From IMG/VR virus record IMGVR_UViG_3300002460_000002, positions 2,247-66,246 of that record: DNA of 64,000 bases; one strand, 5' to 3'. This document shows, piece after piece, positions 3,599 through 21,852 of the stretch (position 1 is the stretch's first letter; every line of letters begins with the position of its first letter). Below the pieces are notes generated by a model that was given only the letters and a program-made list of their open reading frames with translations, was not told where the DNA came from and searched no databases. Source of the stretch: a virus. The translations under genes and the position numbers were made by a program.

Positions 3599-3825
3599 CG
3601 GGTCGGCTCTAGAGCATGCAACAATTTCTCGGGTGACTTCGCAGATACCGCATTCTTCTTGAAGCTTTCATCCCCGTGTGAAACCACCGTCCAATCTTGA
3701 TTCAACGCCACGATTTCAACACAGATTAAACAAACAAGACCAAGCCCGTCATCGACCGCGTACTCCGCTGGTGCACCAACAAACTCGCTAAGAACAAGAC
3801 TCAACTGCTTGGCGGTAAACCTCAT
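3595..3825 (-). CDS. Hypothetical 76-residue protein
   Basis: Short frame coupled to both neighbours by 4-base overlaps. It has a hydrophobic central stretch (LGLVCLICVEIVAL) with two Cys, possibly a buried strand-helix rather than a membrane span because acidic residues flank it. No family recognised. It is kept as real because the tight overlaps extend the operon without a gap. Confidence 0.5.
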   Translation of the reverse strand: MRFTAKQLSLVLSEFVGAPAEYAVDDGLGLVCLICVEIVALNQDWTVVSHGDESFKKNAVSAKSPEKLLHALEPTR

Positions 3826-4538: not shown

Positions 4539-4574
4539 TGCTAGTTTGCTAACATAGTAGCAAAGCCCGGTCAA
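4536..4574 (-). promoter_or_regulatory. Leaderless promoter overlapped by tandem 8-bp boxes
   Basis: On the minus strand TTGACC (4574-4569), a 17-bp spacer, then TAGCAA and 7 bases to the GTG start of the nucleotidyltransferase. The -10 overlaps the boxes GTTAGCAA and ACTAGCAG (4553-4538), the same 8-bp repeat found at the RHH gene 33714-33848. The promoter lies inside the end of the upstream gene, so it would be an internal, possibly repressible start. Confidence 0.4.
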
Positions 4575-5347
4575 GTCTCAATCAACGCCGCCCCCGGCCC
4601 GAGCCCGAGCGTCAACACCAGCACCTTCCGGCCTTCGGGAAGGTGGGCCCTGGCGCACTCGGCCGCCAGCTCGGCGTCGTTGATGACGTAGACCTGGGTG
4701 TCCGCCGGCACATCCGCCAACACTTCATCCACGAAAGTCTTGTGCCCGGCCACTCCGTACGTGCTTTCACCCGGCACCAGGTCATCCCCAATCGGAAACG
4801 GCAGGCTCAAAAGCAGCGGCACGTTCGGAAGCATCGTCGAAGCCTCTCGAACCGCATCCCGAATGAACCAAATCGACCGCTCTTGCTTCCCAAGCACGTC
4901 TTCAATCGGAATGGTTGAAAAATCCCGAGCGACGACGAAGCTGGCGCCGGGCGACGCGTAACACTTCACCGAAGTCTGTCCCACATCGACCACGACCATC
5001 AGATCCTTGTTCGCAAAAAGCGCCTCTTTCGCGGTCCAGGCGTAGTTTCGACCGGCGAACATCCAGACTGGTGGCGCTCGCAGCATGTCCTGCAGCCCGA
5101 GCATCTCGGCACCGCCGCCTGCCAGGAACACGGTGTCAAACTCATGCTCCCGCTGAATAACCCCACACCCGCGAATAATACCGCTGGCGACGATACTCGC
5201 GGCTTCGGTTCTTGAATACTTGCGCGACAGGTCTTCGGTCAGACGCGCTCCGACTACTTCCCAAAACTTCTGCCCGCTGCCGACATCCAGATCCCAGACC
5301 TGCAGCGGTCGGACACCCGGGCACGAAAGCCGAACGATCCGGCTCAC
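4571..5347 (-). CDS. ROK-like sugar kinase, apparently circularly permuted
   Basis: 258 residues from a GTG that overlaps the stop of 5344-6039. The C-terminal half reads like the first half of a ROK/ASKHA kinase: VVVDVGQTSVK (phosphate-1 loop, about residue 118), YVINDAELAAE with the catalytic-type Asn-Asp, then LVLTLGLGPGAALI (phosphate-2 loop), after which the protein ends. The N-terminal half has FLAGGGAEML (about residue 71), resembling the adenosine-binding element normally found at the C-terminus. The order therefore looks swapped. ATP-dependent phosphorylation of a sugar is likely but the substrate is unknown. Coupled to a nucleotidyltransferase gene. Confidence 0.6.
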   Translation of the reverse strand: MSRIVRLSCPGVRPLQVWDLDVGSGQKFWEVVGARLTEDLSRKYSRTEAASIVASGIIRGCGVIQREHEFDTVFLAGGGAEMLGLQDMLRAPPVWMFAGRNYAWTAKEALFANKDLMVVVDVGQTSVKCYASPGASFVVARDFSTIPIEDVLGKQERSIWFIRDAVREASTMLPNVPLLLSLPFPIGDDLVPGESTYGVAGHKTFVDEVLADVPADTQVYVINDAELAAECARAHLPEGRKVLVLTLGLGPGAALIET

Positions 5348-6039
5348 AACGTCAGGGCATCGAAGCCCTCTCCTCGAAATGAAGTCGCCTTCCGGTTGAC
5401 CTTCGGCACCCATGAAAACACCGACGAGACTTCACCCACGTGCTCGACGAGATTCGGAACATGCAGCGCGTACTCGGTCCAGGGTGAATAGAGGAGCTGG
5501 TGCGAGAAGAGCGCGTCGGCTGAATGCTTGTTCGGGACCTCGTCGACCCAGTAGCGCGCGTTCTCGACGAGATACTTCATCGTGCGCTGCGGGAACATGA
5601 CTGCCTGGGTTCCCCAGAAGCCTCGCCCGTCGGCTCCCATCACAGGGACTTTTCGCAGGCCGTCCGCTGCGCCGTACGGGCAGTCCTTCATGTCGAAGAA
5701 ACTGATGAACGCGCAGTCGTCGGGGACGCCGATCTGGCGCATGCGGTGAACGGCGCTCTTGCAGGCGACCACGTCATCCTCGAAGAAGAGCATGCGGTCG
5801 AACTCGGCGCCGAAACGAAACGCCGCAAAAACCGCCTTAAGATTTCCAACAGGTCCACCCGGTATCGGAACAATTCCCCAACCAGTAGACAAAGCAGTAC
5901 TACGAATCGTCTCATCCGGCTCGCCGTCGACAATCACGATCTTCTGATCTGCCCCCGCACGATCGAGCGACGCCAATGTGTCCTTCAGATAAGACTTCCC
6001 GCGGTTCGGGGTGGTCAGGACGACAAGGACATCGCGCAT
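5344..6039 (-). CDS. Glycosyltransferase (GT25/GT2-like), FEDDV motif
   Basis: 231 residues. An N-terminal nucleotide-sugar fold (VLVVLTTPNRGKSYLKDTLASL, then VIVDGEPDE) is followed by LFFEDDVV, the metal-binding motif of GT25-type transferases. The closing segment (VEHVGEVSSV, ATSFRGEGFDALTL) matches the C-terminal domain of 13899-15740 (VQHMGDESLVG, STFIGVDADAMTLI), so the two genes share one domain family. It probably adds a hexose to a phage or host glycan in the cytoplasm. It begins 5 bases after the stop of 6045-7043. Confidence 0.7.
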   Translation of the reverse strand: MRDVLVVLTTPNRGKSYLKDTLASLDRAGADQKIVIVDGEPDETIRSTALSTGWGIVPIPGGPVGNLKAVFAAFRFGAEFDRMLFFEDDVVACKSAVHRMRQIGVPDDCAFISFFDMKDCPYGAADGLRKVPVMGADGRGFWGTQAVMFPQRTMKYLVENARYWVDEVPNKHSADALFSHQLLYSPWTEYALHVPNLVEHVGEVSSVFSWVPKVNRKATSFRGEGFDALTL

Positions 6040-7122: not shown

Positions 7123-7635
7123 ATGTCTGCGCCGCAACTCCGCGCCCACACCGTCTACACGCTGGAAGATCGCGTGAAGATTCTGCGGCGGTTGGTCTGG
7201 GCACCGGAAGGTGGACTGAGAGACCCGCTCATGCGCCGGCTCGGGCTCGCGGTCACTCAAGGCGTGAAAGCTCGCGACGACATGGGTGAACTCGGCGCGA
7301 TCTTCGATGCCGTCGTGAAAAATGTCCGCTACACCGGAGACATCGCAAGCAAAGACACGTTCCAGACCGCGCTTCGGACGCTACAGTTCGGTGGAGGTGA
7401 CTGTGATGATCATGCGACGCTTTGCGTCACTCTCGCGATGGAAAACGGATTTGAGAGTAAGTTCCGGATCACATCTAACACCGGCAACAGCTGGGACCAC
7501 ATCTACGCGATGTGTGGTGTTCCAAAACACAAGCCCTCTCGCTGGGTCGCGCTCGACACCACACTAGGTATCGGCAAGTTTGGACGCCAACCCCCGATGG
7601 CGAAATATCGTGACTTCGCAGTAGGTAGCGGATGA
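7123..7635 (+). CDS. Transglutaminase-like cysteine protease
   Basis: 170 residues carrying the transglutaminase-core triad in order: Cys94 in GGGDCDDHATL, His126 in WDHIYAM and Asp145 in VALDTTLG. Bacterial and phage proteins of this superfamily usually act as peptidases or amidases and often sit near virion or cell-wall genes. There is no signal peptide. It begins a plus-strand run with two small proteins and a peptidoglycan-binding-like protein (8254-9921), so cell-wall processing or virion maturation are both plausible. The start lacks a usable ribosome-binding site and is probably leaderless. Confidence 0.75.
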   Translation: MSAPQLRAHTVYTLEDRVKILRRLVWAPEGGLRDPLMRRLGLAVTQGVKARDDMGELGAIFDAVVKNVRYTGDIASKDTFQTALRTLQFGGGDCDDHATLCVTLAMENGFESKFRITSNTGNSWDHIYAMCGVPKHKPSRWVALDTTLGIGKFGRQPPMAKYRDFAVGSG

Positions 7636-8244: not shown

Positions 8245-8253
8245 CATCCCTTG

Positions 8254-9921
8254 ATGATGTCACCGTTCGGGTACCAACGGCTCGGGTATCCCGGCATGGG
8301 ATACCAGCAACTGGGCGCGAGCAGCCCAGCCGAAGCGGCCCTTCAACGGGCTGTCGTCGCCCTCGGCATGCTCACGAACGACGGCCGTCTGGCCCTGAAA
8401 GTTGACGGCATCGTCGGTCCGGGAACGGCCGCGGCCGTCAACCGGGCGCTGTCGGTCTACGCAACCACGGCCCCGGCAGCCGCGCGCACCGGCAAGCTCA
8501 CGGTCGCGACGATCAAGGCCCAGGTCGCCGCCCTGACGAACCTGATCGCGACCGAAGCCAACCGACGCCAGGCCGGCAAAGCCCCGGTGGCGAAAACCCC
8601 TGCCGCCGCAGCCCCGACCGCGAGCAAGGCCGCTGTCGCGACTCTTCAACGCGCGGTTGCCACGCTCGGTGCCCAGCGCAACGACGCAACCCTCAAGATC
8701 GCGACCGACGGTCTCATCGGACCAAAAACAGTCGCGGCCACCAACCGCGCTCTGACTCGCTACGTTTCAAGTGCACCGGCCAACATGCGCACGGGATCGC
8801 TCAACACCGCCCAGGTGCAGAGCAACGCCGCGATGATTGCCACCTACGTCGAGCGTGAGATCGCCGCGTTCAAGGCGAAGCCGGCCACGACACCAAAGGC
8901 TGCCCCGGCAATCTCCAAGACCGCTGGACTCGCGCTGCAGAATGCCCTTCGCTCGCTCGGAAACGCAACCAAGGACGCGGTTCTGAAGATCGCCGCGGAC
9001 GGGATCGTCGGCCCTCGTACCCTCACCGCCGTCAACCGTGCGCTGACTGCCTATCTGGGCAAGGCGCAGACGGACATGAACGGCATCAAGGCCAACATCG
9101 CCGCCCTCACATCGATGATCTCGTCCGAAGCCACGAAACGTGGATCCACTGCACCGGTGGCGGCGACCCCTGGTGCGAAAGCCGCTGTTCCCGGCGGCGT
9201 CGCCAACCTCACCGTCGCGCGCATGCAGCGGGCGCTGATCGATCTCGGTGCCCTGGTCGGTGACTCTGTCCTGCGGATCGCATCGGACGGCATCGTCGGC
9301 CCGAAGACGACCGCGGCCATCAACAAGGCAATCTCGTCCTACATCCCGAACGCGCCTGCCGGGCTCAAGCAGAAGCTCTCCGCCGGCCAGGTCTCGGCCA
9401 TGGCGGACGTCATCGCGTCCCAGGTCGAAGCCGCGGTCGCAGCGAAACGCGCGGTCGCTGCTCGAGAAGAAGCAAAGGGCAACGGCCCGGGGCCAACAGC
9501 AACACCGGAAGAGGCCCAGGCCCCGGTGCCGGACATCGGTCCCGCACCACGTATCCAAGAGCCCGCGTACACCGCGCCGACACCGGCTGCGGTTCCATCT
9601 GAACCTTCCTACACACCGTCGCCGTCCGAAGCCGCTTACGCACGGCAGACGCAACAGGCGCCGGCTCCCACATACGCTCCTTCATCTTCAACACCTGACT
9701 ACTCAGCGATGTTGCCACCGTCCGCTGTACCTGGCGGAGGTCAAGAAATCGCACCGACCCCGGGCGCCGATGTGCCCGCACCGGCCGAAAAGAAGAAATT
9801 CCCCTGGATGTGGGTTGGCGTCGGTGCCGGTGTGGCCGTTCTCGGCGGCATCGCCATCATCGCTTTCTCCAAAAAGCGAAGGCGCACGGCTCGACGTCGC
9901 CTGGTTCCGGCGCACGCCTAG
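8254..9921 (+). CDS. Membrane-anchored protein with four peptidoglycan-binding-like repeats
   Basis: About 555 residues. Four copies of a PG_binding_1-like motif occur near residues 27, 126, 225 and 322, each with the pattern LQ-A-LG...DG-(I/L)-GP-T--A-N-A. They are separated by Ala-rich helices. A Pro-rich linker (about 410-510) leads to one membrane span (FPWMWVGVGAGVAVLGGIAIIAF) and a KKRRR tail. The repeats should contact peptidoglycan or a glycan; the tail would face the cytoplasm or virion interior. A short gene with one similar repeat and a span lies at 52984-53454. No catalytic domain is present, so it is a binder or scaffold. The ATG at 8254 has TAACAT six bases upstream. Confidence 0.7.
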   Translation: MMSPFGYQRLGYPGMGYQQLGASSPAEAALQRAVVALGMLTNDGRLALKVDGIVGPGTAAAVNRALSVYATTAPAAARTGKLTVATIKAQVAALTNLIATEANRRQAGKAPVAKTPAAAAPTASKAAVATLQRAVATLGAQRNDATLKIATDGLIGPKTVAATNRALTRYVSSAPANMRTGSLNTAQVQSNAAMIATYVEREIAAFKAKPATTPKAAPAISKTAGLALQNALRSLGNATKDAVLKIAADGIVGPRTLTAVNRALTAYLGKAQTDMNGIKANIAALTSMISSEATKRGSTAPVAATPGAKAAVPGGVANLTVARMQRALIDLGALVGDSVLRIASDGIVGPKTTAAINKAISSYIPNAPAGLKQKLSAGQVSAMADVIASQVEAAVAAKRAVAAREEAKGNGPGPTATPEEAQAPVPDIGPAPRIQEPAYTAPTPAAVPSEPSYTPSPSEAAYARQTQQAPAPTYAPSSSTPDYSAMLPPSAVPGGGQEIAPTPGADVPAPAEKKKFPWMWVGVGAGVAVLGGIAIIAFSKKRRRTARRRLVPAHA

Positions 9922-9923
9922 AG

Positions 9924-10335
9924 CGTCCCGGTGTCAACCTGTTGAGCAAGGTTTTCTGCCTGCTACGCGTGCTTCTTCGACGACGCGAAGAGCCCCTGGT
10001 CTCAACTTCCAACCTGTTGAGCAAGGTTTTCTGCCACACCGATTGCTTGCACCCCTGAATTCCATCAAGGAACGGTCTCAACTTCCAACCTGTTGAGCAA
10101 GGTTTTCTGCAAAAGCTCACTCTCAAACAGGGTTCCAGGGATCGCCGTCTCAACTTCCAACCTGTTGAGCAAGGTTTTCTGCAACACCCAGTCAAGCCCC
10201 CATCGAGCCTCGTCGAGCAGGCGAGTCTCAACTTCCAACCTGTTGAGCAAGGTTTTCTGCTCTGCGCGCGAGTTCCAGGAACGGCTGGACAAGGCGCTCG
10301 TCTCAACTTCCAACCTGTTGAGCAAGGTTTTCTGC
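9924..10335 (-). CRISPR. Orphan CRISPR array, five spacers
   Basis: Five identical 36-bp repeats start at 9999, 10075, 10147, 10225 and 10300, and one degenerate copy occupies 9924-9959 with its first 11 bases diverged. Spacers are 39, 40, 36, 42 and 39 bp and all different. The repeat contains a perfect 6-bp inverted pair (CTCAAC and GTTGAG, 9-base loop). The minus strand is preferred because it ends repeats in GTTGAGAC, close to the usual AUUGAAAC handle, and puts the degenerate copy at the trailer end. No cas1, cas2 or effector gene is in the window; the only Cas4-like gene (38343-39707) is far away and looks replicative. Confidence 0.95.
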
Positions 10336-10499
10336 TGCCCCATTGATTTATGCCACAATTTCACGTCTTTGACTCCGGTCTTTCGAGCGCCTGTCTTTCA
10401 TGACCGTTACTTCTCTCCTCGTTCATCCAAAACCGCCGCAACATCTTGAAATCACTTATGCGAGCGCCTCCCGGGCTTTCGACACCACCGAACCGCTCG
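10336..10499 (-). promoter_or_regulatory. Probable CRISPR leader
   Basis: A 164-bp stretch without a credible gene between the intact end of the array and the convergent gene end at 10500. It is less GC-rich than its surroundings near the array and on the minus strand has GGCATAAAT about 20 bases before the first repeat, a possible -10. Leader identity is inferred from repeat polarity. Confidence 0.4.
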
Positions 10500-11300
10500 C
10501 TAGAGCACCCCGGTAAACGCGCCGAACTTGGCGCCTTCCGGCAACTGCTTCAAGAACGTAGATCGTGACGTGGCTTGGGCCGCGGCCTTGGCAGCTCTCG
10601 GCGAAAGCAACAGGACGTCCCCAAACTCAGGAACCTGGTGCACCGGCAGGACCCACATCGCGTGAGGCAGGTTCGGCTCATGCGGGAGCTTCAAGTCAGG
10701 CGCAAAAGAGATGAACTCGAGATCATCGTCGAGAACGACGGTACGGATGAAATCGAACGAAAGTTTTTTCTCTTCGTCAACTACAAGGATCTTGAGAGAA
10801 GCCGCAACCGAATCAGCGTCGTCATCCCGCTTCGACTCCACTACCTCCCCGAAGGTACAACGAGCGAAAAACCGCGCAGGCGCCTGAAAATTGATCTCCC
10901 GCAGCGGGATCCGGTGCTCCCACTCCTCGCGGATCTCTCGTCGAATGGCTTGAAGACGTGCCTGGCGGCCGGCCGCTACTTTGGAGTCGTCGAAGCGCCG
11001 GACCGCAGTACAAGCACACGCAAGCTCATACCAGTGCAGCGCGCTATCGAGATCTCCTGTATCTTGACAGATGTCCCCGAGAAGACAGAGTGCGTCGACG
11101 GAGGGACCGTCGTTCAGAGCGCGAATGGCCCAAACCTCGGCCAGCTCAAACTCTCCACGCGCGACTGCATCTCTTGAAAGTCGAACCGCTTGATGCTGCC
11201 GCTCGTCTGAGAAGACCATCCGAGGCCCGATGATCTTCCGAAACTCCATCGTCTTTTCTTCGTCTCCGAGTGCAGCCTTGTACGTGTCGTAATCCATCAC
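10500..11300 (-). CDS. TPR-like module protein of the glycan operon
   Basis: 266 residues, last gene of its operon. Its N-terminal half contains the 40-residue helical module shared with four neighbouring proteins (AEVWAIRALNDGPSVDALCLLGD...ALHWYELAC). The C-terminal half has a phosphoacceptor-like strand pattern (LKILVVDEE, IRTVVLDDDLEFISF) and ends in a polar segment, but no DxD transferase motif. It may be a protein-binding partner for the transferases or a degenerate transferase. The start GTG overlaps the stop of 11297-12247, with an ATG directly after. Confidence 0.6.
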   Translation of the reverse strand: MMDYDTYKAALGDEEKTMEFRKIIGPRMVFSDERQHQAVRLSRDAVARGEFELAEVWAIRALNDGPSVDALCLLGDICQDTGDLDSALHWYELACACTAVRRFDDSKVAAGRQARLQAIRREIREEWEHRIPLREINFQAPARFFARCTFGEVVESKRDDDADSVAASLKILVVDEEKKLSFDFIRTVVLDDDLEFISFAPDLKLPHEPNLPHAMWVLPVHQVPEFGDVLLLSPRAAKAAAQATSRSTFLKQLPEGAKFGAFTGVL

Positions 11301-12247
11301 TTGCTCCTCATCCTGTCTCGCTCGGGTGCGAACTCAACCGCCTTTGCCCATGTCTCGGCGGCGGTTGAATCCCCCCGAAGTTTCGCCAACTCCGTGAGCA
11401 GCGCGAACGCATCCGGGTGTGGGCCATCAAACAACGCCCGCACCGCCCACATCTCCGCCGCTAAGATCTCCCCCTCTTCCCCGTACCGCTGTCCGACAGC
11501 GACACACAACGTGGCGCGACTGTCCGAAAACTCTCCGTGTGCTAGCTGGGACGCCAGATACTTTTCCGCCCACTTCGCGCCTTGACCGAGGTTTCCAAGA
11601 AACGTGTCGTGCTTTGCTAGGTGGTAGATGGCGTTCTGATCACCTTCTTCCGCCAACGGCCGCAACAACTCCATACCAGCGTTGCGCTGCTCGTTCCGAC
11701 GCTGGTTGTCTTCTGTCGATCGCAAAGACGTGTCCTGAATGACCTTCGCCTCGATCGGAAAATCCGGTCTCGCGCCCGGCAACTGATTATGCGTTGGAGA
11801 CCGCCAACGCAAGTGCGCTCGGGCAAAGCGCGTCGGGTCACGAAACTCGAAATTCGCTGTCGCTCGCCACACCGAAAACGAATTGTACGGCGTGAACATG
11901 TAGCGGCCAGCTAACGCACGAAGATCGACCCGGCACTCCAGGTACTCGTCAGAATCGAAGTGCATGATCCAAGGGGATCTGACGCGGGCCCATCCAAGAT
12001 TCCTCGCGTTCGCGAAGTGAATCAGCCCGGCCTGCCACTGCTCCGCAGAAAGACCAACATCCGCGTGTCCAAACGTCCACACCGACGATGTGAACTTTTC
12101 CGCGACCTTCCGTGTGTCTGGGTCCGTTGTACGGTCATCGATGCCGATGTCGATCTCATCTACGTGCACCTTGGCCGACTCCAACGCACGTTCCAGACTT
12201 CGGGCGTCGTTCCGGACGATCATGCACAAGGCAATGAGCGGTTTCAT
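11297..12247 (-). CDS. GT2-like glycosyltransferase with TPR-like module
   Basis: 316 residues. The N-terminus is a GT-A fold: LIALCMIVRNDARSLERALES, a strand with DIGIDDRTTD, and the metal-binding HFDSDEYLE, followed by HNQLP. The C-terminal third carries the shared helical module (AEMWAVRALFDGPHPDAFALL). It is a close paralog of 12244-13236 and is coupled to it by a 4-base overlap. Expected reaction: transfer of a sugar from an NDP-sugar to a glycan acceptor. Confidence 0.75.
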   Translation of the reverse strand: MKPLIALCMIVRNDARSLERALESAKVHVDEIDIGIDDRTTDPDTRKVAEKFTSSVWTFGHADVGLSAEQWQAGLIHFANARNLGWARVRSPWIMHFDSDEYLECRVDLRALAGRYMFTPYNSFSVWRATANFEFRDPTRFARAHLRWRSPTHNQLPGARPDFPIEAKVIQDTSLRSTEDNQRRNEQRNAGMELLRPLAEEGDQNAIYHLAKHDTFLGNLGQGAKWAEKYLASQLAHGEFSDSRATLCVAVGQRYGEEGEILAAEMWAVRALFDGPHPDAFALLTELAKLRGDSTAAETWAKAVEFAPERDRMRSK

Positions 12248-13236
12248 CGTCGCAACTCGTCTCGGCGCAAGAACCGTTTGGTGACCAACTCAGGAATACC
12301 AAACTCCTCCGACGGTAGCGTGATGCACGCGATCTCGTGCCACGCCAGCGCGTCTTTTTTTCGTCCGCGCAGGTCCGCGATGTCACCGAGCAAATAGAAC
12401 GCTTCAAGACTCGGACCGTCCATCAGCGCCTTGACCGCCCACGTCTCGGCTGTCGCATAGTCCTTCTTGTCGAAGAAACCGCAAGCAACGAGGATCGCGA
12501 GTTGTCTACGCTCCTTCGCTGCAAGGCCGTGCACCTCTGTAGACAATCGAAACTCGTTCACCAAAGCGACGTGATCTTCGGATCCGGCATGCGTGGCGTG
12601 TTTCGCGACGTGGTACAGGGCGGCCAGATCTCCGGCCTTTGCATCGACTTTCAGATCTTCGTTGGCGGCATCACGCTGTTTTCGACGACGCTCTTGCTCT
12701 GCTTTAGATCGGAGATCGAGTTGCTGAAAGACGTGGGCTCCCTGGTAGACGGTGTATTGCCATTTTTCCGGAATCACGAGTTGATTGTGGGTATGTGCCC
12801 TCCAACAGAACTCAGACCTAGCGATGCGGTGGTGATCGAGCGTGATACTGTCTCCCAGGTGCACGGGAAGAGCAATGGCACCAACGATGTCCGGCAGGCT
12901 CTTAACAAACGCGCGCAGATCGACAACGCACTCGAGAAACTCGTCCGAGTCGATGACAAGGGTCCACGGCGTCTTCACCCGAGCGCGGCCGAGATTACGA
13001 GCCGCAGCGAAATTGATCTTGTCAACGGCCCAGGCTTCGTCTGAGAGCCCGATGTCTCCCTTCTCAAAGCCCCAAACTTCATCCGCCAATTGACCGGCCA
13101 TGATGACGGTCTCTGCGTCCGACCGGCCGTCAACACCGACGATCACTCGATCGACGTGAGGGCGGGCGCTCTTGATCGCGCGCTCCAGGCCGGCCGCGTC
13201 CGACCGAGCAATCATGTCGAGGGTGAGAAGGTCCAA
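12244..13236 (-). CDS. GT2-like glycosyltransferase with TPR-like module
   Basis: 330 residues from a TTG start chosen because MDLLTLDMIARSDA then lines up with the paralog 11297-12247; the ATG at 13215 is the alternative. It has VIVGVDGRSD, the metal site VIDSDEFLE and THNQLV of the same GT-A subfamily, then the shared module (AETWAVKALMDGPSLEAFYLLGD). A terminator ends only a few bases upstream of the start, and no ribosome-binding site is visible, so how this gene is expressed is unclear. It leads a three-gene operon. Confidence 0.7.
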   Translation of the reverse strand: MDLLTLDMIARSDAAGLERAIKSARPHVDRVIVGVDGRSDAETVIMAGQLADEVWGFEKGDIGLSDEAWAVDKINFAAARNLGRARVKTPWTLVIDSDEFLECVVDLRAFVKSLPDIVGAIALPVHLGDSITLDHHRIARSEFCWRAHTHNQLVIPEKWQYTVYQGAHVFQQLDLRSKAEQERRRKQRDAANEDLKVDAKAGDLAALYHVAKHATHAGSEDHVALVNEFRLSTEVHGLAAKERRQLAILVACGFFDKKDYATAETWAVKALMDGPSLEAFYLLGDIADLRGRKKDALAWHEIACITLPSEEFGIPELVTKRFLRRDELRR

Positions 13237-13239
13237 AGC

Positions 13240-13274
13240 AAAAAGGCCCGAGGTATTAATACCCCGAGCCTTTC
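13240..13274 (-). terminator. Intrinsic terminator after 13307-13804
   Basis: A GC-rich stem (GGCTCGGGG...CCTCGGGCC on the minus strand) with an AT-rich loop is followed by TTTTT. It ends the single-gene unit 13307-13804. The stem also works on the plus strand (CCTTTCT). Confidence 0.85.
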
Positions 13275-13280
13275 TACTTT

Positions 13281-13298
13281 GCTAGCAAAATAGCTAGC
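13281..13298. repeat. TAGC-containing 8-bp-spaced repeats
   Basis: GCTAGCAAAATAGCTAGC is nearly palindromic and has TAGC cores 8 bp apart, like the GTTAGCNN boxes at 33867-33890, 22875-22890 and 4538-4553. It lies between the stop of 13307-13804 and the terminator. It is the weakest member of the set and may be unrelated. Confidence 0.35.
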
Positions 13299-13306
13299 CC
13301 GAAGTC

Positions 13307-13804
13307 CTACGCGTCATAGCTGTGCACGCGCCGGGCGTACACCATGACCCGCGCGGTGGCCGCGGCCGAGCCGCGCTTGGTCGCACGCGCCGCGAAGTGC
13401 CGCGTGAGGATCGGCGTCGCACCGTCAGTGTCCAGCGTCGCGGCCGCACCGGTGATCGGATTGTTCGTCTTGATCAGCGACGTCTGCAGAATGGTCGCTG
13501 CTGCGGCCGCCGTGGTGGCGGTCACGAAGTCGAGCGCGATCCGCAACGAAGCGGTGCTGGTCGCAACCGCGCCAGTGGCCGCGATCAGACGCTCCCAAAG
13601 GGCAACGTCGTTCAACTGCTTCCGCCAGCCGGGCGAACCGACCGTCAACGGCGCCAGATCCTGGAGCACGTTGCCGAACATGTCACCGGTGTAGCTTCCG
13701 GTTGACCGAAACTGGGTCAACGGAAAAACCCGGATCGGGTTCAACGAGGCGTTGATGAAGTCGGCGTAGAAACAGAGCTTCTTGCGTTGCACAGCGCTGG
13801 CCAT
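13307..13804 (-). CDS. Singly transcribed hypothetical protein, candidate abundant virion protein
   Basis: 165 residues with a near-ideal ribosome-binding site (AAGGAG, 7 bases before ATG), a consensus-like promoter (13873-13902) and its own terminator, set between glycan operons. The sequence is Ala/Thr-rich with the N-terminal stretch KLCFYADFINASLNP and a C-terminal VMVYARRVHSYDA; no Cys cluster or membrane span. The expression signals suggest an abundant product such as a coat or minor capsid protein. No family was recognised, so the role is inference. Confidence 0.6.
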   Translation of the reverse strand: MASAVQRKKLCFYADFINASLNPIRVFPLTQFRSTGSYTGDMFGNVLQDLAPLTVGSPGWRKQLNDVALWERLIAATGAVATSTASLRIALDFVTATTAAAAATILQTSLIKTNNPITGAAATLDTDGATPILTRHFAARATKRGSAAATARVMVYARRVHSYDA

Positions 13805-13872
13805 GATGATCTCCTTGAGGATTCCCGACCACGGTTACGGGTACTCCCCGGAGCCGTCAAGTCGTCCCCGCA

Positions 13873-13902
13873 ACTAGACCACACCTCTGCCCGCTGTGTC
13901 AA
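13873..13902 (-). promoter_or_regulatory. Strong promoter for 13307-13804
   Basis: Minus strand TTGACA, 18-bp spacer, TCTAGT. The -35 is a perfect consensus hexamer. About 60 bases of leader precede the AAGGAG ribosome-binding site of 13307-13804, and the region also overlaps the last bases of the upstream gene. Confidence 0.6.
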
Positions 13903-15740
13903 ATCAGTGTCATCGCATCAGCGTCAACTCCTATAAATGTTGAAGACTTACGGATCTCGGTCTCACCCACCAACGATTCATCCCCCATGTGTTGAACCAA
14001 CCCAGGGAAGTGCAGCGCGGCCTTCGCACCCGGAAACGCCTTGGCATAGGCCATGTCTCCTGCATGGCGCTCGGACCAATTTTTGACGACACCAGAATCC
14101 AGAATCTTCTGGGCCGTTTCGCACGACATCGAGATCGCCACGTTGCGGATGAAGGCATCCGTGAACAGGTACATTGGCGGTCCCTGGCGAAACGGCGCAC
14201 CGAGTTCGCTCCACCAAACCGTGATCGGCGCATCTTCTGAAGGCACCACTCGCGCGATGTAATCGAGCGCGTTCTTCGCCAGGACGACATCGTCCTCGAA
14301 CAGGGTGAGGCGCTTGGCGCCGAGAGCGATCGCAGCACGAAGCCCACGAAAAAAAGTTTTGGCTTGGCCTTGATCCCGTACTCCCTCTGCAATCCATCCC
14401 GGGCTGGGCGCACCAACACCCGTACCATCCACTATCAAGATTCTTGGCCCTCTCCATCGCCCTGCACCGGCCGCGTCTAGGCTCGCGAGCGTCTGCTCCC
14501 GTAGCTTGTCTCGCCCTTCTGTTGTCTGCACCACCAACGCGTGACTCTCGTCGTCCGGCGGACCGAAACGAACCGGCCGCACGTTCTCAACAGACTCGCG
14601 CCGGATCTCTTCCAACCGGCCGGGCTCAGACGCCACCAAAGAGATCGGCGGCTCGTGCGTGATCGCGCCTGCGGCCTCGTACCATCCGATCGCGGACTCG
14701 TAGTCCATTCGATCCAAGGCAATCTCCCCGAGCAGCTTCAACGCGTCCGCCCGAAAATTTCCATGCAACGACCGAAGTGACCATTGCTCGGCCTCGGCCA
14801 GTTGTTCCTTGTTGTAGTAGGCCAACGCCAGGGTAAGCGCCGCCAAGCCCCGCTCAACCGCGCCTGCATCCGGTCGCAGACGAATCTCCTTCACCAAAGC
14901 CTCCGCCACCACAAGATCTCCAGCGTTGATGGCTTGACTCAAATTCATTCGCGTTTTCTCCTTCACCTGAAAATATCGCCGCGCGATGTAATCTTCCGGG
15001 ATCTCGTACTCCATCACCCGCTCAAAATTTTCTTGAATAGCTGGCAACATCGACTCGTACCGCTCACGGGACAACCCCTTCACAGTGAAGGTCTCATCTA
15101 ATTTGATGATCCCCGCTGGATTGAAGAAATCGCCGATGTCCGGTGCGCCGCAGTAGATCGGCACGGTACCGGTCGCGAAACAGTCGAGAATCTTCTCGGT
15201 GAAGTAACCGGCCGAAACCGCATTCTCCATCGCCACCGAAAACATGTAGTCACAGAGTCCCTCCTCTTTCATTCTGATACTGGAGTCGAGACCGAACACG
15301 TCGATCATATTCTGGTGTGCCCGCGCCCACCGAACCCGCTCCCGGTGCCCAGGCAACGCCGTCTTCGCTGACGTGATCATCGAACACAGCTTCGTCTTCG
15401 GATGAATCCGCATGTCCTTGATCCAGATTCCGGATGCTGGCGCCCAATAACACTTGATGCCGTTGTTGGCCATTACCGTCGAATGCGTGAAGATCTTTTC
15501 AAACCGGTTCATCAGCGGCGCGAGCTTCAACAACACACGATCCGTCCAGGCCGGAGTCTCCAACACCCAGGCGTAATGGGGACCGGCACCTTTCAGCTCC
15601 GGCTCCAACGCGTTCATGTCTACGTGAAACGTCGGCGCGGCTGACCTACATGAATGATCCCACGTTACTAGTTTGGCGCTCTTGCCGGCGCACGTGCTGG
15701 GGGCGCCTTTGAAAGCGACGCCGTCGACGTTCCAGATCAT
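13899..15740 (-). CDS. Fused GT10-like and GT25-like glycosyltransferase with TPR-like linker
   Basis: 613 residues with three parts. The N-terminal region has the fucosyltransferase (GT10) signature around residues 170-205: ENAVSAGYFTEKILDCFATG, TVPIYCGAPD. The middle (about 300-360) carries the shared helical module (AEQWSLRSLHGNFRADALKLLGE). The C-terminal 200 residues form a second transferase domain with VVQTTEGRDKLREQTLASL and LFEDDVVLAKNAL, paralogous to 5344-6039. One protein could thus add two different sugars. It overlaps 15737-16621 by 4 bases. Confidence 0.75.
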   Translation of the reverse strand: MIWNVDGVAFKGAPSTCAGKSAKLVTWDHSCRSAAPTFHVDMNALEPELKGAGPHYAWVLETPAWTDRVLLKLAPLMNRFEKIFTHSTVMANNGIKCYWAPASGIWIKDMRIHPKTKLCSMITSAKTALPGHRERVRWARAHQNMIDVFGLDSSIRMKEEGLCDYMFSVAMENAVSAGYFTEKILDCFATGTVPIYCGAPDIGDFFNPAGIIKLDETFTVKGLSRERYESMLPAIQENFERVMEYEIPEDYIARRYFQVKEKTRMNLSQAINAGDLVVAEALVKEIRLRPDAGAVERGLAALTLALAYYNKEQLAEAEQWSLRSLHGNFRADALKLLGEIALDRMDYESAIGWYEAAGAITHEPPISLVASEPGRLEEIRRESVENVRPVRFGPPDDESHALVVQTTEGRDKLREQTLASLDAAGAGRWRGPRILIVDGTGVGAPSPGWIAEGVRDQGQAKTFFRGLRAAIALGAKRLTLFEDDVVLAKNALDYIARVVPSEDAPITVWWSELGAPFRQGPPMYLFTDAFIRNVAISMSCETAQKILDSGVVKNWSERHAGDMAYAKAFPGAKAALHFPGLVQHMGDESLVGETEIRKSSTFIGVDADAMTLI

Positions 15741-16621
15741 CGGATGAGGCTCGCGTAGAACTTGGAGGCTTCTTCACAGGCACGCACGTGCGTCGGAATG
15801 CCGTCAGGTTGCTGAAACCGTTGCGTCCACGAGTGATCCTTGTACAGCAAATCGTTCTGAACTCGCTTCCCATTGAGAAAAGCCTGCGCCAAAACGTCCA
15901 GCTCCGTCTCAGGAACCGTCTTCCAGGGCGCACCGAATCTACCCGCTGTCGTGCTTTCCTTGTTCACCTGCCAGGTCATGCAACACGGTTTACTGGGCCC
16001 GACGTGCCGACGGTTTCGCCACAGATGAGGATGAGTGACTCCGATCGTCTCAAGATGATTCGGAGTCAGGCTCTGTTTTTTCCACTCGAGCCCTGCCTCG
16101 GCCGCGGCCGCGGCACCATCGAGAACACGAAGGTAGTCTTCACGACAGTAGAGGGCGCCGTCTGAGTGCCAAAGGTAACCATGATCTCGTCCGGGGCTGT
16201 TCTCACGAAGCCAGTAACCTCCGCGATGTGGATTTGGATGGTGCCAATCTGGATCACCGAGACGCCACGACCACACAAAGGCGTATCGTTCAACCAAAAC
16301 AGAAACAGCGTATCGAAAATCGGCAGGCCGGTAATAGATCTGGTCGTCGACGTTGATGCAAACGTACGAACCGTCCGGTGCAGTTCGGACCGTGTCCTCG
16401 AGCGCGGCCGCAAGACCAAAACCCCTCCCCTCTTGGATGAAAGTCGTCGAGACTTTCCGCTCTTCACTCATCAGTCTGGTGTACGCATCTTCATGTAACT
16501 GGCCCGTCGCTCGGCAGATGACCGTGATGTGGTTGATACCGGTGCACATATCGTCCATCGACCGCAGCAGTGACTCACACTGCATGGCCCGATCCATCGA
16601 GAAGATGATGGTTTCGATCAC
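15737..16621 (-). CDS. Putative GT-A glycosyltransferase
   Basis: 294 residues. It begins MIETIIFSMDRAMQCESLLRS, typical of the first strand-helix of GT-A enzymes, and has CINVDDQIYY at the position of the DxD metal site. The rest is rich in Trp and His (SWRLGDPDWHHPNP) and has no membrane span. It is embedded in an operon with overlaps on both sides. Exact family not assigned; sugar transfer to the same glycan is likely. Confidence 0.6.
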   Translation of the reverse strand: MIETIIFSMDRAMQCESLLRSMDDMCTGINHITVICRATGQLHEDAYTRLMSEERKVSTTFIQEGRGFGLAAALEDTVRTAPDGSYVCINVDDQIYYRPADFRYAVSVLVERYAFVWSWRLGDPDWHHPNPHRGGYWLRENSPGRDHGYLWHSDGALYCREDYLRVLDGAAAAAEAGLEWKKQSLTPNHLETIGVTHPHLWRNRRHVGPSKPCCMTWQVNKESTTAGRFGAPWKTVPETELDVLAQAFLNGKRVQNDLLYKDHSWTQRFQQPDGIPTHVRACEEASKFYASLIR

Positions 16622-17223
16622 AGATGGTCCTTCAACACTGAAAGCGCCGCTTGCATCACCTTTTGTGAAATGTGGTTTTCGTCGATGTAGAGATCCGGAT
16701 CAGACCCATCTCCAAAAGGAATCGACATGAACCATTCTCCCCACCGCTCTCGAAGACCAGCGTTGAAAGCGGCCGTGATAATGTTTCGCTCTCGACAGGT
16801 TCCAACAGCACGGCTCGCTGGCGCCGTGGGAGACGACGGCACCACGTTCCAGATCAACACCTGAACCCCGAGTTTCCAGATCTCGTCAATCACGCCGCAG
16901 TACCGATCAAGGCACGGCTCTACTGCAGCCTTCGGAGTCCCCCCACTCTCAAGCCAGCGGCGCGTGATGTGAACCCGGCAATCAATCTCCCCGGACACCA
17001 GCATCACCTTGCTACCCGGATTCAGTGTACCCAAAATCTTGAACAACTTCTCTCGACCCCCTGATGTACTGTTCGGCTTGCAAAGGTTGTACGCCAGCAC
17101 CGCACCCAGACGGTACGATCGAAACTGTGGAAGCCGATTCGATGCTGGCGTCGGCCACTCGGGTTGCACCGCGTCTTCACCAGAAAAGAAACTGGTGTGG
17201 CTGTCACCAATGCAGTGGATCAT
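16618..17223 (-). CDS. SGNH-hydrolase-like esterase
   Basis: 201 residues starting MIHCIGDSHTSFF: the GDS(H) block I carries the nucleophile Ser. VMLVSGEIDCR is a block III-like segment and YIDENHIS supplies the C-terminal Asp-x-x-His pair. Such enzymes remove or transfer acetyl groups on polysaccharides. It has no signal peptide, so it should act in the cytoplasm on a glycan precursor. Overlaps both neighbours in the glycan operon. Confidence 0.7.
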   Translation of the reverse strand: MIHCIGDSHTSFFSGEDAVQPEWPTPASNRLPQFRSYRLGAVLAYNLCKPNSTSGGREKLFKILGTLNPGSKVMLVSGEIDCRVHITRRWLESGGTPKAAVEPCLDRYCGVIDEIWKLGVQVLIWNVVPSSPTAPASRAVGTCRERNIITAAFNAGLRERWGEWFMSIPFGDGSDPDLYIDENHISQKVMQAALSVLKDHL

Positions 17224-18515
17224 ACCGACGCCTCTAAAATCCCGCGCCGAAGCGCGCCGTGGAGCCGGATTCGGTACTCGAGATTGACCCGCTTCACCAT
17301 CGCGACCAGCTCCTCAACAGTCGGGTAACCTTCCGCGCCGAAGCTCAATAGATCATCGATGAACAGTGTGTGGTCTCGTCGCGGCGCACCTATGAGCGCC
17401 TCCATCTCTGCCCTAATCGCCGTCGAAGTCGCGCCGGCCGAAGTCTTGCCGCCGGAATAGTGCGCATCAAGCCACAAGGTCGCGCGTCGGCCTTCTAGCC
17501 CGGCAAGAATCCCCGGCAATAATGCCCCAGAATCCCCATGAAGAATGTGGACACCTGAAACATCCGCAAACCGCTCGACCCCTTGCCGCCACAGTGACTC
17601 AGAAATCTCGACGGAGATCACGGTGTCAAACACGGCTCGCGCAACAGACGTTGACAAGCCTCGATAAAACCCAGTCTCGATGAACATCGTCGACGTCGCT
17701 GCGGCCTTCTTCAGGAGATGCAACGGCACGCTGTACGGCTCGAACGTGGTACCGAGCGGAGGCATCTCGGTTTCATCCGGTAGACCCCCAAACGACCGCG
17801 GGATTCCCCAGAAGAGCATGTAGTTGTTGGGACCGGTGAGTGGTACCTCTGGGTATCGCTGCACCCCCAACGGGCCGAACAAGCCCGGCAACAGGTCCGC
17901 CGCAGCGTTGGCCGAGATGTACCCGCGGGGGCAGTTCATGGCAACTCGAGAGACGTACAGCTTGATCACATCTGGCGGAAGTTCGCTCAGGGCGTAGTTG
18001 CTGATGAAAAGATCGGCTTCGATCTTCTGCGGCAACTCGAACGCGTTCACTAAATGCGCTTCGGTGCCGAGCGTGTGCAGGTACTTCTGGGCAAGAGCGA
18101 GCGGCTCCGGCAAGTCAATGATTGTGTAGTCACTACTCGGCCAACGGGCCTTCACGAGCCGAGCCAAGCCACCATACCCACCACCAACCTCCACGATTCG
18201 AGCCCCATTCAGGTCGCCAAAAAACCACGCTATGTCTGAAACATTCTTCGCGTATCGAAGCGTCGTCGGGGATACCCGTCCAGCTTGGAGATACTCTTGT
18301 CTAACTGGCGATCCGATCGAATCATTCGTCTGCCACACATCGGGACGAAACTCACCGGATGAAACACACTTTGCGTACTCAATACCCTGCTCCGGCGTCA
18401 CGTGCTCGAGAATCCGCGTGTACTCCGGTCGTTGTCGAAATGTCGCGAACACCGCCGGATCTGCGACGGCCTGCCGGCAAAGCTCGCAGTAGTCAGTGTA
18501 ATTGATGTCTGTCAT
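17220..18515 (-). CDS. Double methyltransferase-like protein
   Basis: 431 residues containing two Rossmann-type SAM-binding regions. The first has ARIVEVGGGYGGLARLVKARW (about 105-122) and a following TIIDLPEPLALAQKY, as in putative sugar O-methyltransferases. The second has FIETGFYRGLSTSVARAV (about 273), ISVEISESLW and LWLDAHYSGG, as in methyltransferases of the Methyltransf_24 type. Fusion suggests two methylations of the same glycan or a capping step. Coupled by 4-base overlaps. Confidence 0.7.
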   Translation of the reverse strand: MTDINYTDYCELCRQAVADPAVFATFRQRPEYTRILEHVTPEQGIEYAKCVSSGEFRPDVWQTNDSIGSPVRQEYLQAGRVSPTTLRYAKNVSDIAWFFGDLNGARIVEVGGGYGGLARLVKARWPSSDYTIIDLPEPLALAQKYLHTLGTEAHLVNAFELPQKIEADLFISNYALSELPPDVIKLYVSRVAMNCPRGYISANAAADLLPGLFGPLGVQRYPEVPLTGPNNYMLFWGIPRSFGGLPDETEMPPLGTTFEPYSVPLHLLKKAAATSTMFIETGFYRGLSTSVARAVFDTVISVEISESLWRQGVERFADVSGVHILHGDSGALLPGILAGLEGRRATLWLDAHYSGGKTSAGATSTAIRAEMEALIGAPRRDHTLFIDDLLSFGAEGYPTVEELVAMVKRVNLEYRIRLHGALRRGILEASV

Positions 18516-20584
18516 GGTCTCTCAAGCCTCGGATACGGCTTCCGCGAGAAGACCAGGTCACGCACGCGGGTCTGCCCCATCGGGTCAACCTTGTGGTCGT
18601 TGTCCGGCGTCTCCATGTTGTACCTATAGAGGATCTCCGGAATGTGGACCGCACGCTCACGGGCCATCTCCAACATCGGAATCATGAGCGCCACGTCGCC
18701 GCCAGTTGTGAACCATTCCCCGGCGTCGTCCTTGAAATCAACCAAGTCGATCTTGTCAAACAAGAACCGCTTGAACGTTTTCAAGTGCGAACCGGCCCAT
18801 GGAACCTGACGGTGAAGACCTTCGCGCGCGACCTTTGCCGGGTACGCGTTCATCCAGGTGAGCTTCCCCAAGGTGTCGCACCACGAGCCGTAGGTCATCC
18901 AGGCGCCGGCCTGGTACGCCTTCTCTACGTCCACTAGAACGCCGGGGTTCGCGAGCCAATCGTCGCCGTCGAGAACCACGCAGACATTCTCAGGATCATT
19001 CGCTCCGATGCTGGTCAAACCGTTTCGGATGTTGTGAAGAGACCCAAGCCGCATCCCGTTACCCATGAACATGAAACTGTGTCGAATCGGTCTCTTGTTG
19101 ATGAATGCTTGGATCTCTCTCACAGTGCCGTCGGTTGAAGCGTCATCAACCACAACGCAATTAACATCAACGCAGATCTGGCCCTCAACAGACTCCAGGC
19201 ACCGTCGAATCCACTTCTCCGCGTTCCTGACTGGAACAACCACGACGTACTTCGGTGGAGACTTCCCCGGCATCAACTTTGGGTCCAACTCCTTCTGGAT
19301 CTCCGCTAGACGTTCCTCTCGCTCATCCACTAGTTGTGAAATCTTGACCCGGGACCGCGTCTCGGGAACCACGCAAGCCAACTGATACCAGTCCCGCGCG
19401 ATCTCGTCGCTATCTTCAATTTCACCCAAGAGACACATCGCGTCCGTTCGTGGACCGTTCGCCATCGAAGCCAGCGCCCACTCTTTCGCCTTGGAAAAGT
19501 CTTCCCTCCCGTAGTACGTCGCCGCCAACTGGATCGCGGCGCCGGCAGCGACCTCGGGCTGCTCCGCCAAGGCTTGGACAGCGATCTCAGCCTTGTCCAG
19601 GTTGCCGCTGATCAAGGCCTGTTGAAACGCGGCGTGTACCTGATGAATCGTCGGTCCCTGTGGCTGGGCCTGAACGCGTGTGTTCGTGCTGTGAATGAGC
19701 CCCAGGATCAACGCCGTGAACTTCTTCGACTGCTCGGCACCGTCGAGGTGTCGTTCAACATACGCACGGTATTCCCCCGAATGATACGGGCTATCAATCA
19801 AGTCTCTTAACCGCTTGAAATCTCTCCACACCCAAAGTGGATTCCAGTTCGTCGTAGCCCCTGGGAAGTCGTGGATCAACGGCTTGATCCCAAGCGCCAT
19901 TGCTTCCGCGACCGTGTACGAGAGCGTCTCCCAGATCGACGGGAGCAGCAGAAAATTTGCGTCGATCGCGTCGAGCCAGGTCGCGGTGTCAACCATCCCG
20001 GTCAAGAAAACATTTGACGGTGCGGAGTGCTCCAGGTAGCGGACCAGCCTCGGATTCTGCTCTGCCAGGGCGAGCGTCACATGCAACTGATGTTGCGGAT
20101 TCTGCCTGGCCCACTCCATCGCGAGCTGGTAGCCCTTGTCGGATGTTGCCCTAGCCACGAGCGCAAAGACGTTGCCAGGTTTGCGCTCTTTCCACGGGAA
20201 CTTCGTCAGATCGATCCCCGCCGGCATCACATAGGTCAACATCTTGTTCTCGATGAGCGGGAACTGCTCCGCCGCCAACGTCTTCAACGTCTCACTCTCG
20301 TAAACCAGCGCGTCTACGTTCGCCCAGTTCAGTTGATTGAGCGGAAACCAGACGTCGTAACCACGCATCCTGAGCACGAGGCGCTTGCAGACACCTGACG
20401 CCGCGGCCTCGAACGCAATCTCGTTGCACCACTCAGACCACACCAGATCTGCTGCCGCGCACTTCCGGGCGTCGAAAACGTGGAGGATCTCAACCTCATG
20501 CCCGTTGTTGCGTAGGTGTGCGATGACCGGCTGTGAGAAATAGGCCGGGGAGATCGAGCCGATGTCGAGAACGATGAACTTCAT
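18512..20584 (-). CDS. Bifunctional GT4-GT2 glycosyltransferase
   Basis: 690 residues from the ATG (MKFIVLDIGS) that overlaps the upstream stop by 4 bases; a TTG 5 codons earlier is less likely. The N-terminal 290 residues form a GT-B enzyme with FALVARATSDKGYQLAMEWA and LPSIWETLSYTVAEAMALG (GT4). The middle has the shared module (AKEWALASMANGPRTDAMCLLGE). The C-terminal part is GT2: YVVVVPVRNAEKWIRRCLES, VVVDDASTDGT and VLDGDDWLANPG with the DxD site. It could add two consecutive sugars. Confidence 0.85.
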   Translation of the reverse strand: MKFIVLDIGSISPAYFSQPVIAHLRNNGHEVEILHVFDARKCAAADLVWSEWCNEIAFEAAASGVCKRLVLRMRGYDVWFPLNQLNWANVDALVYESETLKTLAAEQFPLIENKMLTYVMPAGIDLTKFPWKERKPGNVFALVARATSDKGYQLAMEWARQNPQHQLHVTLALAEQNPRLVRYLEHSAPSNVFLTGMVDTATWLDAIDANFLLLPSIWETLSYTVAEAMALGIKPLIHDFPGATTNWNPLWVWRDFKRLRDLIDSPYHSGEYRAYVERHLDGAEQSKKFTALILGLIHSTNTRVQAQPQGPTIHQVHAAFQQALISGNLDKAEIAVQALAEQPEVAAGAAIQLAATYYGREDFSKAKEWALASMANGPRTDAMCLLGEIEDSDEIARDWYQLACVVPETRSRVKISQLVDEREERLAEIQKELDPKLMPGKSPPKYVVVVPVRNAEKWIRRCLESVEGQICVDVNCVVVDDASTDGTVREIQAFINKRPIRHSFMFMGNGMRLGSLHNIRNGLTSIGANDPENVCVVLDGDDWLANPGVLVDVEKAYQAGAWMTYGSWCDTLGKLTWMNAYPAKVAREGLHRQVPWAGSHLKTFKRFLFDKIDLVDFKDDAGEWFTTGGDVALMIPMLEMARERAVHIPEILYRYNMETPDNDHKVDPMGQTRVRDLVFSRKPYPRLERP

Positions 20585-21231
20585 AGAGTTACCCACCAAG
20601 ACCGTACTCCTAATTCGCCAAGAAAAAGACGAGGCTCACAACCGAAAAAATCATTGACCGCTTTAGCAACACCGTTGACTGACGGTCGAAGCGGCGGAAA
20701 CTCAGGGTAATAATCGTGCCCTGCAAGAACTCCTCCAGAACGAATCTTAGTACTTGCAACAGAAAGCTCCAGCATGACGTGTTCATACGAATGATTTCCA
20801 TCAAGAAACACGAACCCCAGAGAACCGTCACGGTACTGATTTAATGCCTCTACTGAGTCCTTTCGACACACATTCACGTTTTGCCAAGCACCATGCCGCT
20901 TCATAAAGAACTCGAACGCAGCAAAAAACCCTTCGGCCTGCTCACACAACTCGAACAAGATCGGGATTTGGGTCGAGGGCCATGCTGGATCCCATAGGTC
21001 AATTGCATCGATCTTGACCTTCTTATTTGCTTCAGTACAAGCGTCTACGAAAAACGCGATCGAAGCACCAAAAAGAGACCCGACCTCTACTACATGATCA
21101 CCGTCTCTCAATTGTACAACCGCTTCACGGTACAGATTTTGAAAATCAAACCGACCAGGAATCCCCTTGTAGAACGTGACTGTTTTTTCTGGTCTTTCTT
21201 CGTAACGCTTGAGGTCTTCAAGATCAATCAT
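20581..21231 (-). CDS. Class I SAM-dependent methyltransferase
   Basis: 216 residues. HVVEVGSLFGASIAFFVDAC is the SAM-binding glycine loop, VKIDAIDLWDP the acidic end of strand 2, GFVFLDGNHSYEHVMLE the post-I metal or catalytic segment, and GGVLAGHDYY motif of the Methyltransf_24 type found with glycan genes. Ribosome-binding site GGAAAGGG precedes the ATG. The gene is visibly more AT-rich than its neighbours, suggesting a recent separate origin. It is the first gene of the long minus-strand glycan operon. Confidence 0.75.
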   Translation of the reverse strand: MIDLEDLKRYEERPEKTVTFYKGIPGRFDFQNLYREAVVQLRDGDHVVEVGSLFGASIAFFVDACTEANKKVKIDAIDLWDPAWPSTQIPILFELCEQAEGFFAAFEFFMKRHGAWQNVNVCRKDSVEALNQYRDGSLGFVFLDGNHSYEHVMLELSVASTKIRSGGVLAGHDYYPEFPPLRPSVNGVAKAVNDFFGCEPRLFLGELGVRSWWVTL

Positions 21232-21294: not shown

Positions 21295-21852
21295 TCACTG
21301 TTGCTTTGCGCACAAACGCGTTCCAAGATTTTCCATAGGTCCGGCACCAGTGCCGTCGCAGTGGTAGCGGACGGTCCCTATGTTACGGTACGAGGCCGAT
21401 CGTGTTCCGTCGCCATTTGTAACGATCTCATCATCAATGCAGCCCAGACACGGACCGTTCCAATCAGAAGCCATCGCAACCGCGACATCGAACGGACACT
21501 TGACGTTGACGCCGTTGAGCCGCCCTTTTATACATTCCCATCCCGGATATGCCATCGGTGCGCACCACTTCACGTCGAGAAGCTTGACACCTCCACCAGT
21601 ACATGAAGGTAGACACGAACCGCCGTAGTACTCCCCACCAGAACACGGCGTCCAGTCATCCTGAGAACCACTGACCCCACCAGTCCCACCGCTTCCTACC
21701 GCGCCAAGATCCACCTCCTGCACAGCATCGGACACCTGCTTGCCCCCTTTGATGACGTGTCCGACATCATCGACACCGCTGTCAGAACCACCAGCCAGGC
21801 CGGTCATGTCCATCCCACCACACCCAACCAAGAAAAGCACCAACCACTTCAT
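21295..21852 (-). CDS. Cys-rich lipoprotein
   Basis: 185 residues from the ATG with GGAGAAAG seven bases upstream. The N-terminus is a short lipoprotein signal (MKWLVLFLVGCGG) with the lipobox LVGC. The mature part starts with a Gly/Ser/Asp-rich linker and continues with a Cys-rich domain (CSGGEYYGGSCLPSC, CAPMAYPGWEC) likely held by disulfides. It should sit at the outer or inner membrane surface. Phage lipoproteins can block superinfection; that role is only a suggestion. Confidence 0.7.
   Translation of the reverse strand: MKWLVLFLVGCGGMDMTGLAGGSDSGVDDVGHVIKGGKQVSDAVQEVDLGAVGSGGTGGVSGSQDDWTPCSGGEYYGGSCLPSCTGGGVKLLDVKWCAPMAYPGWECIKGRLNGVNVKCPFDVAVAMASDWNGPCLGCIDDEIVTNGDGTRSASYRNIGTVRYHCDGTGAGPMENLGTRLCAKQQ

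Follow-up and report, generated by a model that had tools for sequence, protein, structure and literature searches.

It is an open question how cytoplasmic transferases single out one protein from many others; in the cases of OGT, FlmG and GmaR, TPR domains are the suspected answer. The peptide S-glycosyltransferases SunS and ThuS consist of a GT-A GT2 domain followed by TPR helices. The TPR domain of SunS takes part in dimerisation, and sunA adjoins sunS. In viruses, the capsid glycosylation cluster of chlorovirus PBCV-1 encodes multi-domain transferases and methyltransferases that provide a glycan on a virion protein. It differs from the locus described here in its eukaryotic host, and we know of no shared TPR module in that cluster. 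In Listeria, GmaR combines a GT2 domain, a TPR array and an antirepressor, and its TPR was proposed to recognise flagellin (PMC9638930). SunS, ThuS and GmaR all glycosylate a polypeptide. The Caulobacter protein FlmG joins a TPR domain to a GT-B transferase. Its TPR domain alone binds flagellin acceptors in a two-hybrid assay, while the transferase domain without the TPR neither binds them nor restores glycosylation (PMC7591256). Here, a compact phage gene cluster is described in which one putative TPR dock is found on unrelated transferases, together with a good candidate acceptor.

Organization of the gene cluster

The analysed stretch of 64,000 nucleotides (the window) covers positions 2247-66246 of a 96,328-base IMG/VR virus record (IMGVR_UViG_3300002460_000002, termed G000). 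Six genes on the minus strand, I (20581), H (18512), G (17220), F (16618), E (15737) and D (13899), form a run in which the end of each overlaps the start of the next, E, F and G sharing 4 bases with their neighbours. A second overlapping run on the same strand comprises C (12244), B (11297) and A (10500), and gene K (13307-13804) lies between the two runs. The initial annotation had noted a common pattern in the five proteins at 10500, 11297, 12244, 13899 and 18512; all five genes are present at these coordinates on the minus strand. The features of the cluster are, in window coordinates:

5344..6039 (-), protein J (231 aa), module-less stand-alone paralog of D's C-terminal domain
10500..11300 (-), protein A (266 aa), module and C-terminal domain without transferase match (BLASTP, Pfam)
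10971..11234 (-), TPR module of A (G000 13217-13480; profile match)
11297..12247 (-), protein B (316 aa), GT2 (GmaR/SunS-like) and module (Pfam, PDB match)
11306..11551 (-), TPR module of B (G000 13552-13797; profile match)
12244..13236 (-), protein C (330 aa), GT2 and module, orthologs in 6/6 module-bearing viruses
12277..12546 (-), TPR module of C (profile match), with further helices towards the N-terminus as far as about residue 178
13307..13804 (-), protein K (165 aa), small conserved protein and acceptor candidate, encoded beside the GT2-TPR gene
13899..15740 (-), protein D (613 aa), GT10 (fucosyltransferase-like), module and GT-A-like domain (Pfam PF00852, E=1e-6)
14628..14879 (-), TPR module of D (G000 16874-17125; profile match)
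15737..18515 (-), genes E, F and G, without module (Pfam and ORF overlaps)
18512..20599 (-), protein H (695 aa), GT4, module and GT2 (PF00534, E=2e-7; PF00535, E=1.4e-11)
19325..19585 (-), TPR module of H, between the two catalytic domains (G000 21571-21831; profile match)
20581..21231 (-), gene I, methyltransferase (Methyltransf_24, Pfam E=1e-17), without module

Among the genes without the module, G matches a methyltransferase in Pfam. Neither E, which has an ortholog in the related record G004, nor F has a Pfam match; an N-terminal SGNH-like motif in F was judged by eye. Orthologs of protein J occur in G001 and G006. A 280-aa protein encoded at 4571-5413 (-) has a sugar-kinase-like look (VVVDVGQTSVKCYASPG) and no Pfam match; it is conserved in G001, as a neighbour of gene J and of a nucleotidyltransferase (3822-4574).

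A homologous TPR domain in five proteins

The common stretch aligns in all pairwise comparisons of the five proteins, with BLASTP E-values from 6e-13 to 0.007. Protein A aligns with C at E=6e-13, with H at 2e-11 and with both B and D at 5e-10, and protein C aligns with H at 7e-8 and with D at 9e-7. A profile of the five copies, searched against all six-frame ORFs of the 96-kb record, returned exactly these five proteins with 104.8-129.3 bits, compared to 5.9 bits for the next ORF and 8.5 bits for the best of 10 shuffled sets. The module is accordingly absent, in this record-wide search, from the cluster genes at 1422, 5344, 15737, 16618, 17220 and 20581. Leave-group-out profiles, built from one protein type and searched against the other types, mostly scored 37-106 bits; lower values were obtained for the truncated module of D in G004 and the very divergent module of H in G001. 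Judged by these comparisons, the five copies are true homologues, and the observation of the initial annotation was right and slightly understated.

The module was initially described as TPR-like and 40 residues long. The repeat unit is larger, spanning about 80-90 residues and up to about 130 with the flanking helices, and contains two canonical TPR repeats, preceded by extra helices and followed by a capping helix. Its assignment as a genuine TPR domain is borne out by profile matches, by the helices of the structure model and by the conserved positions of the 34-residue helix-turn-helix, namely small residues at 8, 20 and 27 and the aromatic positions. Pfam TPR models match protein A with E-values down to 1e-3, under the curated cut-offs, and the module profile matches consensus TPR proteins with E-values up to 6e-31. 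Natural TPR proteins in the PDB reach at most about 20 bits with the five-copy profile, all higher matches being designed consensus TPRs or constructs containing such TPRs. On these scores, the likeness among the modules exceeds generic TPR resemblance. No model for the module was found in PHROGs.

Two further features are shared by the modules. A Trp occupies approximately position 23 of each repeat, in 15/16 modules for the first repeat (listed there as 24, its numbering having begun one residue earlier) and in 16/16 for the second. An acidic residue is found at position 9 of the second repeat in 15/16 modules, a position which we take, from the TPR register, to belong to the ligand-lining helix. 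Position 23 of TPRs usually varies, and position 9 points into the ligand groove.

Catalytic domains associated with the module

The module is attached to four catalytic or domain contexts: GT2 (twice), GT10 with a GT-A-like domain, GT4 with GT2, and a domain without transferase motif. The enzyme types named in the initial annotation (GT2, GT10, GT4-GT2 and a protein without motif) are retained, while the C-terminal GT-A-like domain of D had been missed.

Proteins B and C, which are paralogs with 40% identity, show a GT-A GT2 domain with a DXD motif (D-x-D-E conserved in 7/7 aligned proteins) and the overall fold of GT2-TPR enzymes, with the TPR directly C-terminal of the GT2 domain. Protein B matches Glycos_transf_2 in Pfam (E=2.4e-5) and GmaR in the PDB (22ao, E=1.7e-7), while the Pfam GT2 match of protein C stays under the cut-off. 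In the AlphaFold2 model of C (pLDDT 90), residues 178-329 follow the GT2 domain as an array made up almost entirely of helices, and the model matches the ThuS/SunS fold over its whole length (7msk, E=8.1e-12, TM 0.67). Nevertheless, SunS and ThuS share only 11-12% identity with the phage protein, the SunS equivalog model TIGR04195 scores 17.4 bits against a cut-off of 350, and the phage TPR is also found on GT4, GT10 and GT-A-like enzymes. The nearest solved sequence for the phage GT2 catalytic domain is that of GmaR, with which the GT2-TPR family profile aligns at E=1.8e-14 (PDB 22ao). The phage proteins, however, have no antirepressor, their TPR array is much shorter, and they belong to a multi-enzyme cluster. 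FlmG resembles the phage enzymes in the joining of TPR and transferase, but is a single enzyme with an N-terminal TPR and a transferase domain of another family.

Similar GT2+TPR folds are common among predicted structures of tailed phages (Caudovirales) and giant viruses, with E-values down to 3e-16 and alignments of about 350 columns (for example A0A6J5ME55, A0A8S5PY38 and A0A879R2A6), although these proteins share only 13-17% identity with the phage protein. Some of them are long, with 600-800 residues. Consequently, the earlier impression of a design foreign to phages does not hold for the GT2+module unit, which is already known from SunS, ThuS and GmaR and is predicted widely in viruses. 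Being an ordinary part of one transferase family, which had been named as an outcome speaking against the original proposal, applies to the GT2 type only. What is new is the same putative docking domain on GT4, GT10/GT-A and non-transferase proteins of one cluster.

In protein D, the GT10 assignment follows from PF00852 (29.0 bits; cut-off 23.9) and from an ENS..YVTEK-like motif, seen as MENAVSAGYFTEKILDCF. Its C-terminal GT-A-like domain is homologous to protein J (BLASTP E=4e-14). Protein H carries a GT4 domain (PF00534, 31.2 bits; cut-off 26.4) in which both Glu of the E-x7-E motif are invariant (WETLSYTVAEAMALG). Its orthologs occur in G001, G002, G004 and G005, and in fused form in G003. 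Pfam matches of protein A are limited to the weak TPR hits. An ortholog is present in G001 (L008:5926-6828), and this protein type was restricted to G000 and G001, being absent from the ORFs of G002-G005 that were compared. Protein A might serve as adaptor or regulator, or be an inactive enzyme. Correspondence of its C-terminal domain to the N-terminal extension of GT2a proteins was considered and rejected (hhalign probability 0.4%).

Conservation in related viruses

Relatives were identified with a 252-aa putative capsid protein encoded outside the window (L004:1177-1935), probably the major capsid protein. This probe, a protein kept at 61-63% identity, retrieved six further records of 89-122 kb, including G001, which had been found earlier. 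When 2.9 million viral contigs were scanned for the GT2-module proteins and the module, with single proteins and with alignments, G001 was the sole relative obtained. Among 84,980 species genomes scanned, none was confirmed as a relative, such pattern scans being blind to distant TPRs. The putative capsid proteins (252-262 aa) have no Pfam match and no PDB sequence match. A HerA/DUF87-type packaging ATPase (window 30362-32089) is present in the virus family and tail genes were not found among the ORFs tested; the family may represent a large (89-122 kb) tailless lineage.

The module is carried by six of the seven records, that is, by 5/6 relatives in addition to G000. Five copies are present in G000, four in G001, three in G004 (one truncated), two each in G002 and G005, one in G003 and none in G006. 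The H type appears as GT4-module-GT2 in G000, G004 and G005 and as GT4-module in G001 and G002. The C type, GT2-module, is found in every module-bearing virus except G003, where a single 834-aa ORF joins GT4 and GT2a and contains one module. For the D type, the arrangement is GT10-module-GT-A in G000 and module-GT-A in both G001 and G004, as a remnant in the latter. Transferases without the module also occur in these clusters (J in G000 and two more in G002). Beside the transferases of G003, genes for a UDP-glucose/GDP-mannose dehydrogenase and a GFO/IDH/MocA oxidoreductase (L039:2976-4397 and 2200-3141) were observed, and the virus may produce sugar nucleotides itself.

Modules of the same type share 36% identity between viruses, as opposed to 27% for different types in one virus and 28% for different types in different viruses. 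Since orthologs are closer than the types within one genome, the copies were not recently made or homogenised. Recent duplication inside the G000 phage was rejected on the same grounds, although the tree is poorly resolved. These identities indicate that the module is old, was vertically kept, and was present on several enzyme types before these viruses diverged.

Possible functions of the module

We propose that the module would act as a TPR dock through which several transferases meet at a common protein acceptor of the phage, most likely a component of the virion. The GT2 enzymes B and C, as protein glycosyltransferases of the SunS/GmaR type, would probably attach the first sugar, H (GT4-TPR-GT2) and D (GT10-TPR-GT-A) would use a TPR of the same kind for docking and lengthen the glycan, and the two methyltransferases G and I may finish it. 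We infer the catalytic activities, the shared partner of the modules, the role of K as this partner and the order of steps; binding between TPR and acceptor would be comparable to that of FlmG.

The best acceptor candidate is K (13307-13804), because it lies beside the GT2-TPR gene in 6/6 module-bearing viruses, is doubled in G001, and is missing together with the module from G006. In all six viruses K is on the same strand as the GT2-TPR gene at a distance of 5 to about 210 bases, just upstream in five and just downstream in G003. K was not found in G006, the one module-less virus among these seven related and possibly incomplete records. The co-occurrence comes from a small sample of seven related records with one negative. 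A small candidate acceptor gene adjoining the transferase gene is reminiscent of SunS, but K, with 160-190 aa, is no bacteriocin precursor. Its alignment across viruses is highly divergent, and its virion role is putative in view of a structure model of low confidence (pLDDT 57). Another virion protein could be the true acceptor.

Several findings argue for acceptor docking: a homologous module on four catalytic architectures, the resemblance of GT2+TPR to the polypeptide glycosylators ThuS, SunS and GmaR, the acceptor binding by the TPR of FlmG and the same role proposed for that of GmaR, the co-occurrence of K and module (both in 6/6 viruses, neither in G006), and the retained Trp at about position 23 and acidic residue at position 9. 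The single module on the GT4-GT2a fusion of G003 would be expected if one dock serves both domains. On the other hand, about 27% identity between module types in one genome is low for binding one surface. On balance, that the TPR dock recruits several transferases to a common acceptor, probably a virion protein with K as best candidate, appears to us about evenly poised between right and wrong. The full version, in which four transferase types (GT2, GT4, GT10 and an unclassified GT-A-like type) and a non-enzymatic protein share one interchangeable TPR dock for a single virion protein, is more tentative, and we lean against it.

In the initial annotation, the enzymes were instead thought to be tethered into an assembly line, with the modules binding each other directly or via protein A. 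That the module is common to enzymes of one cluster and kept over deep divergence is upheld, and protein A, which is kept in G001, looks like a possible adaptor; the GT4 and GT2a fusion in G003 is a sign of joint work, and the TPR domain of SunS has a part in dimers. The specific form of tethering is nevertheless not supported by the single module of G003, the two of G002 and of G005, the lack of protein A in G002-G005, and the several cluster enzymes without module. Because the single-module fusion of G003 cannot tie separate enzymes together, docking or self-association fits better, so that an assembly line is possible, yet unlikely, and acceptor docking is preferred. Self-association could also mean that the module merely homodimerises or stabilises each enzyme, as a built-in part of the GT2-TPR fold that was copied onto others. 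The whole-length match to SunS/ThuS, in which the TPR contributes to dimerisation, would agree with this, as would modules that evolve with their own enzyme (36% among orthologs versus 27% between types in one genome). We consider it improbable, as it leaves unexplained why GT4, GT10 and GT-A-like enzymes took up the same domain and why most viruses retain a GT4-module beside a GT2-module. Finally, the modules might be left over from gene duplication and domain shuffling, with no common function. Duplication is frequent in phage gene clusters, B being a paralog of C (40%), and the module of D is truncated in G004 and that of H very divergent in G001. Retention in 6/7 records at about 36% ortholog identity, with invariant Trp, Ala and acidic positions, makes such a relic very unlikely.

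The natural domain swaps in this virus family (fusions, losses and single-module viruses) could show whether the TPR alone sets acceptor choice, and the modules are possible parts for protein glyco-engineering.

Additional features of the record

A CRISPR-like array is located just downstream of the cluster (window 9924-10341, +). It contains six copies of a 36-base repeat (GTCTCAACTTCCAACCTGTTGAGCAAGGTTTTCTGC), the first of which is degenerate, and five spacers of 36-42 bases, all different. A search of other viral contigs did not return the repeat core, no clear Cas protein was detected among ten large ORFs tested, and no spacer targets were found among the sequences compared. In G003, two exact copies of a 37-base repeat (L039:4574-4682), spaced 72 bases apart, immediately precede the fused GT4-GT2 gene and are possibly another minimal CRISPR-like array near the glycan cluster. 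A 556-aa protein encoded at 8251-9921 (+) combines several peptidoglycan-binding repeats with a membrane segment at the C-terminus and a basic tail, and is adjoined by a transglutaminase-like protein (7123-7635). A 739-aa protein (window 60656-62875) and the next ORF, neither with a Pfam match, match the same two or three G001 proteins and therefore constitute a paralogous family, perhaps spike or fibre-like.
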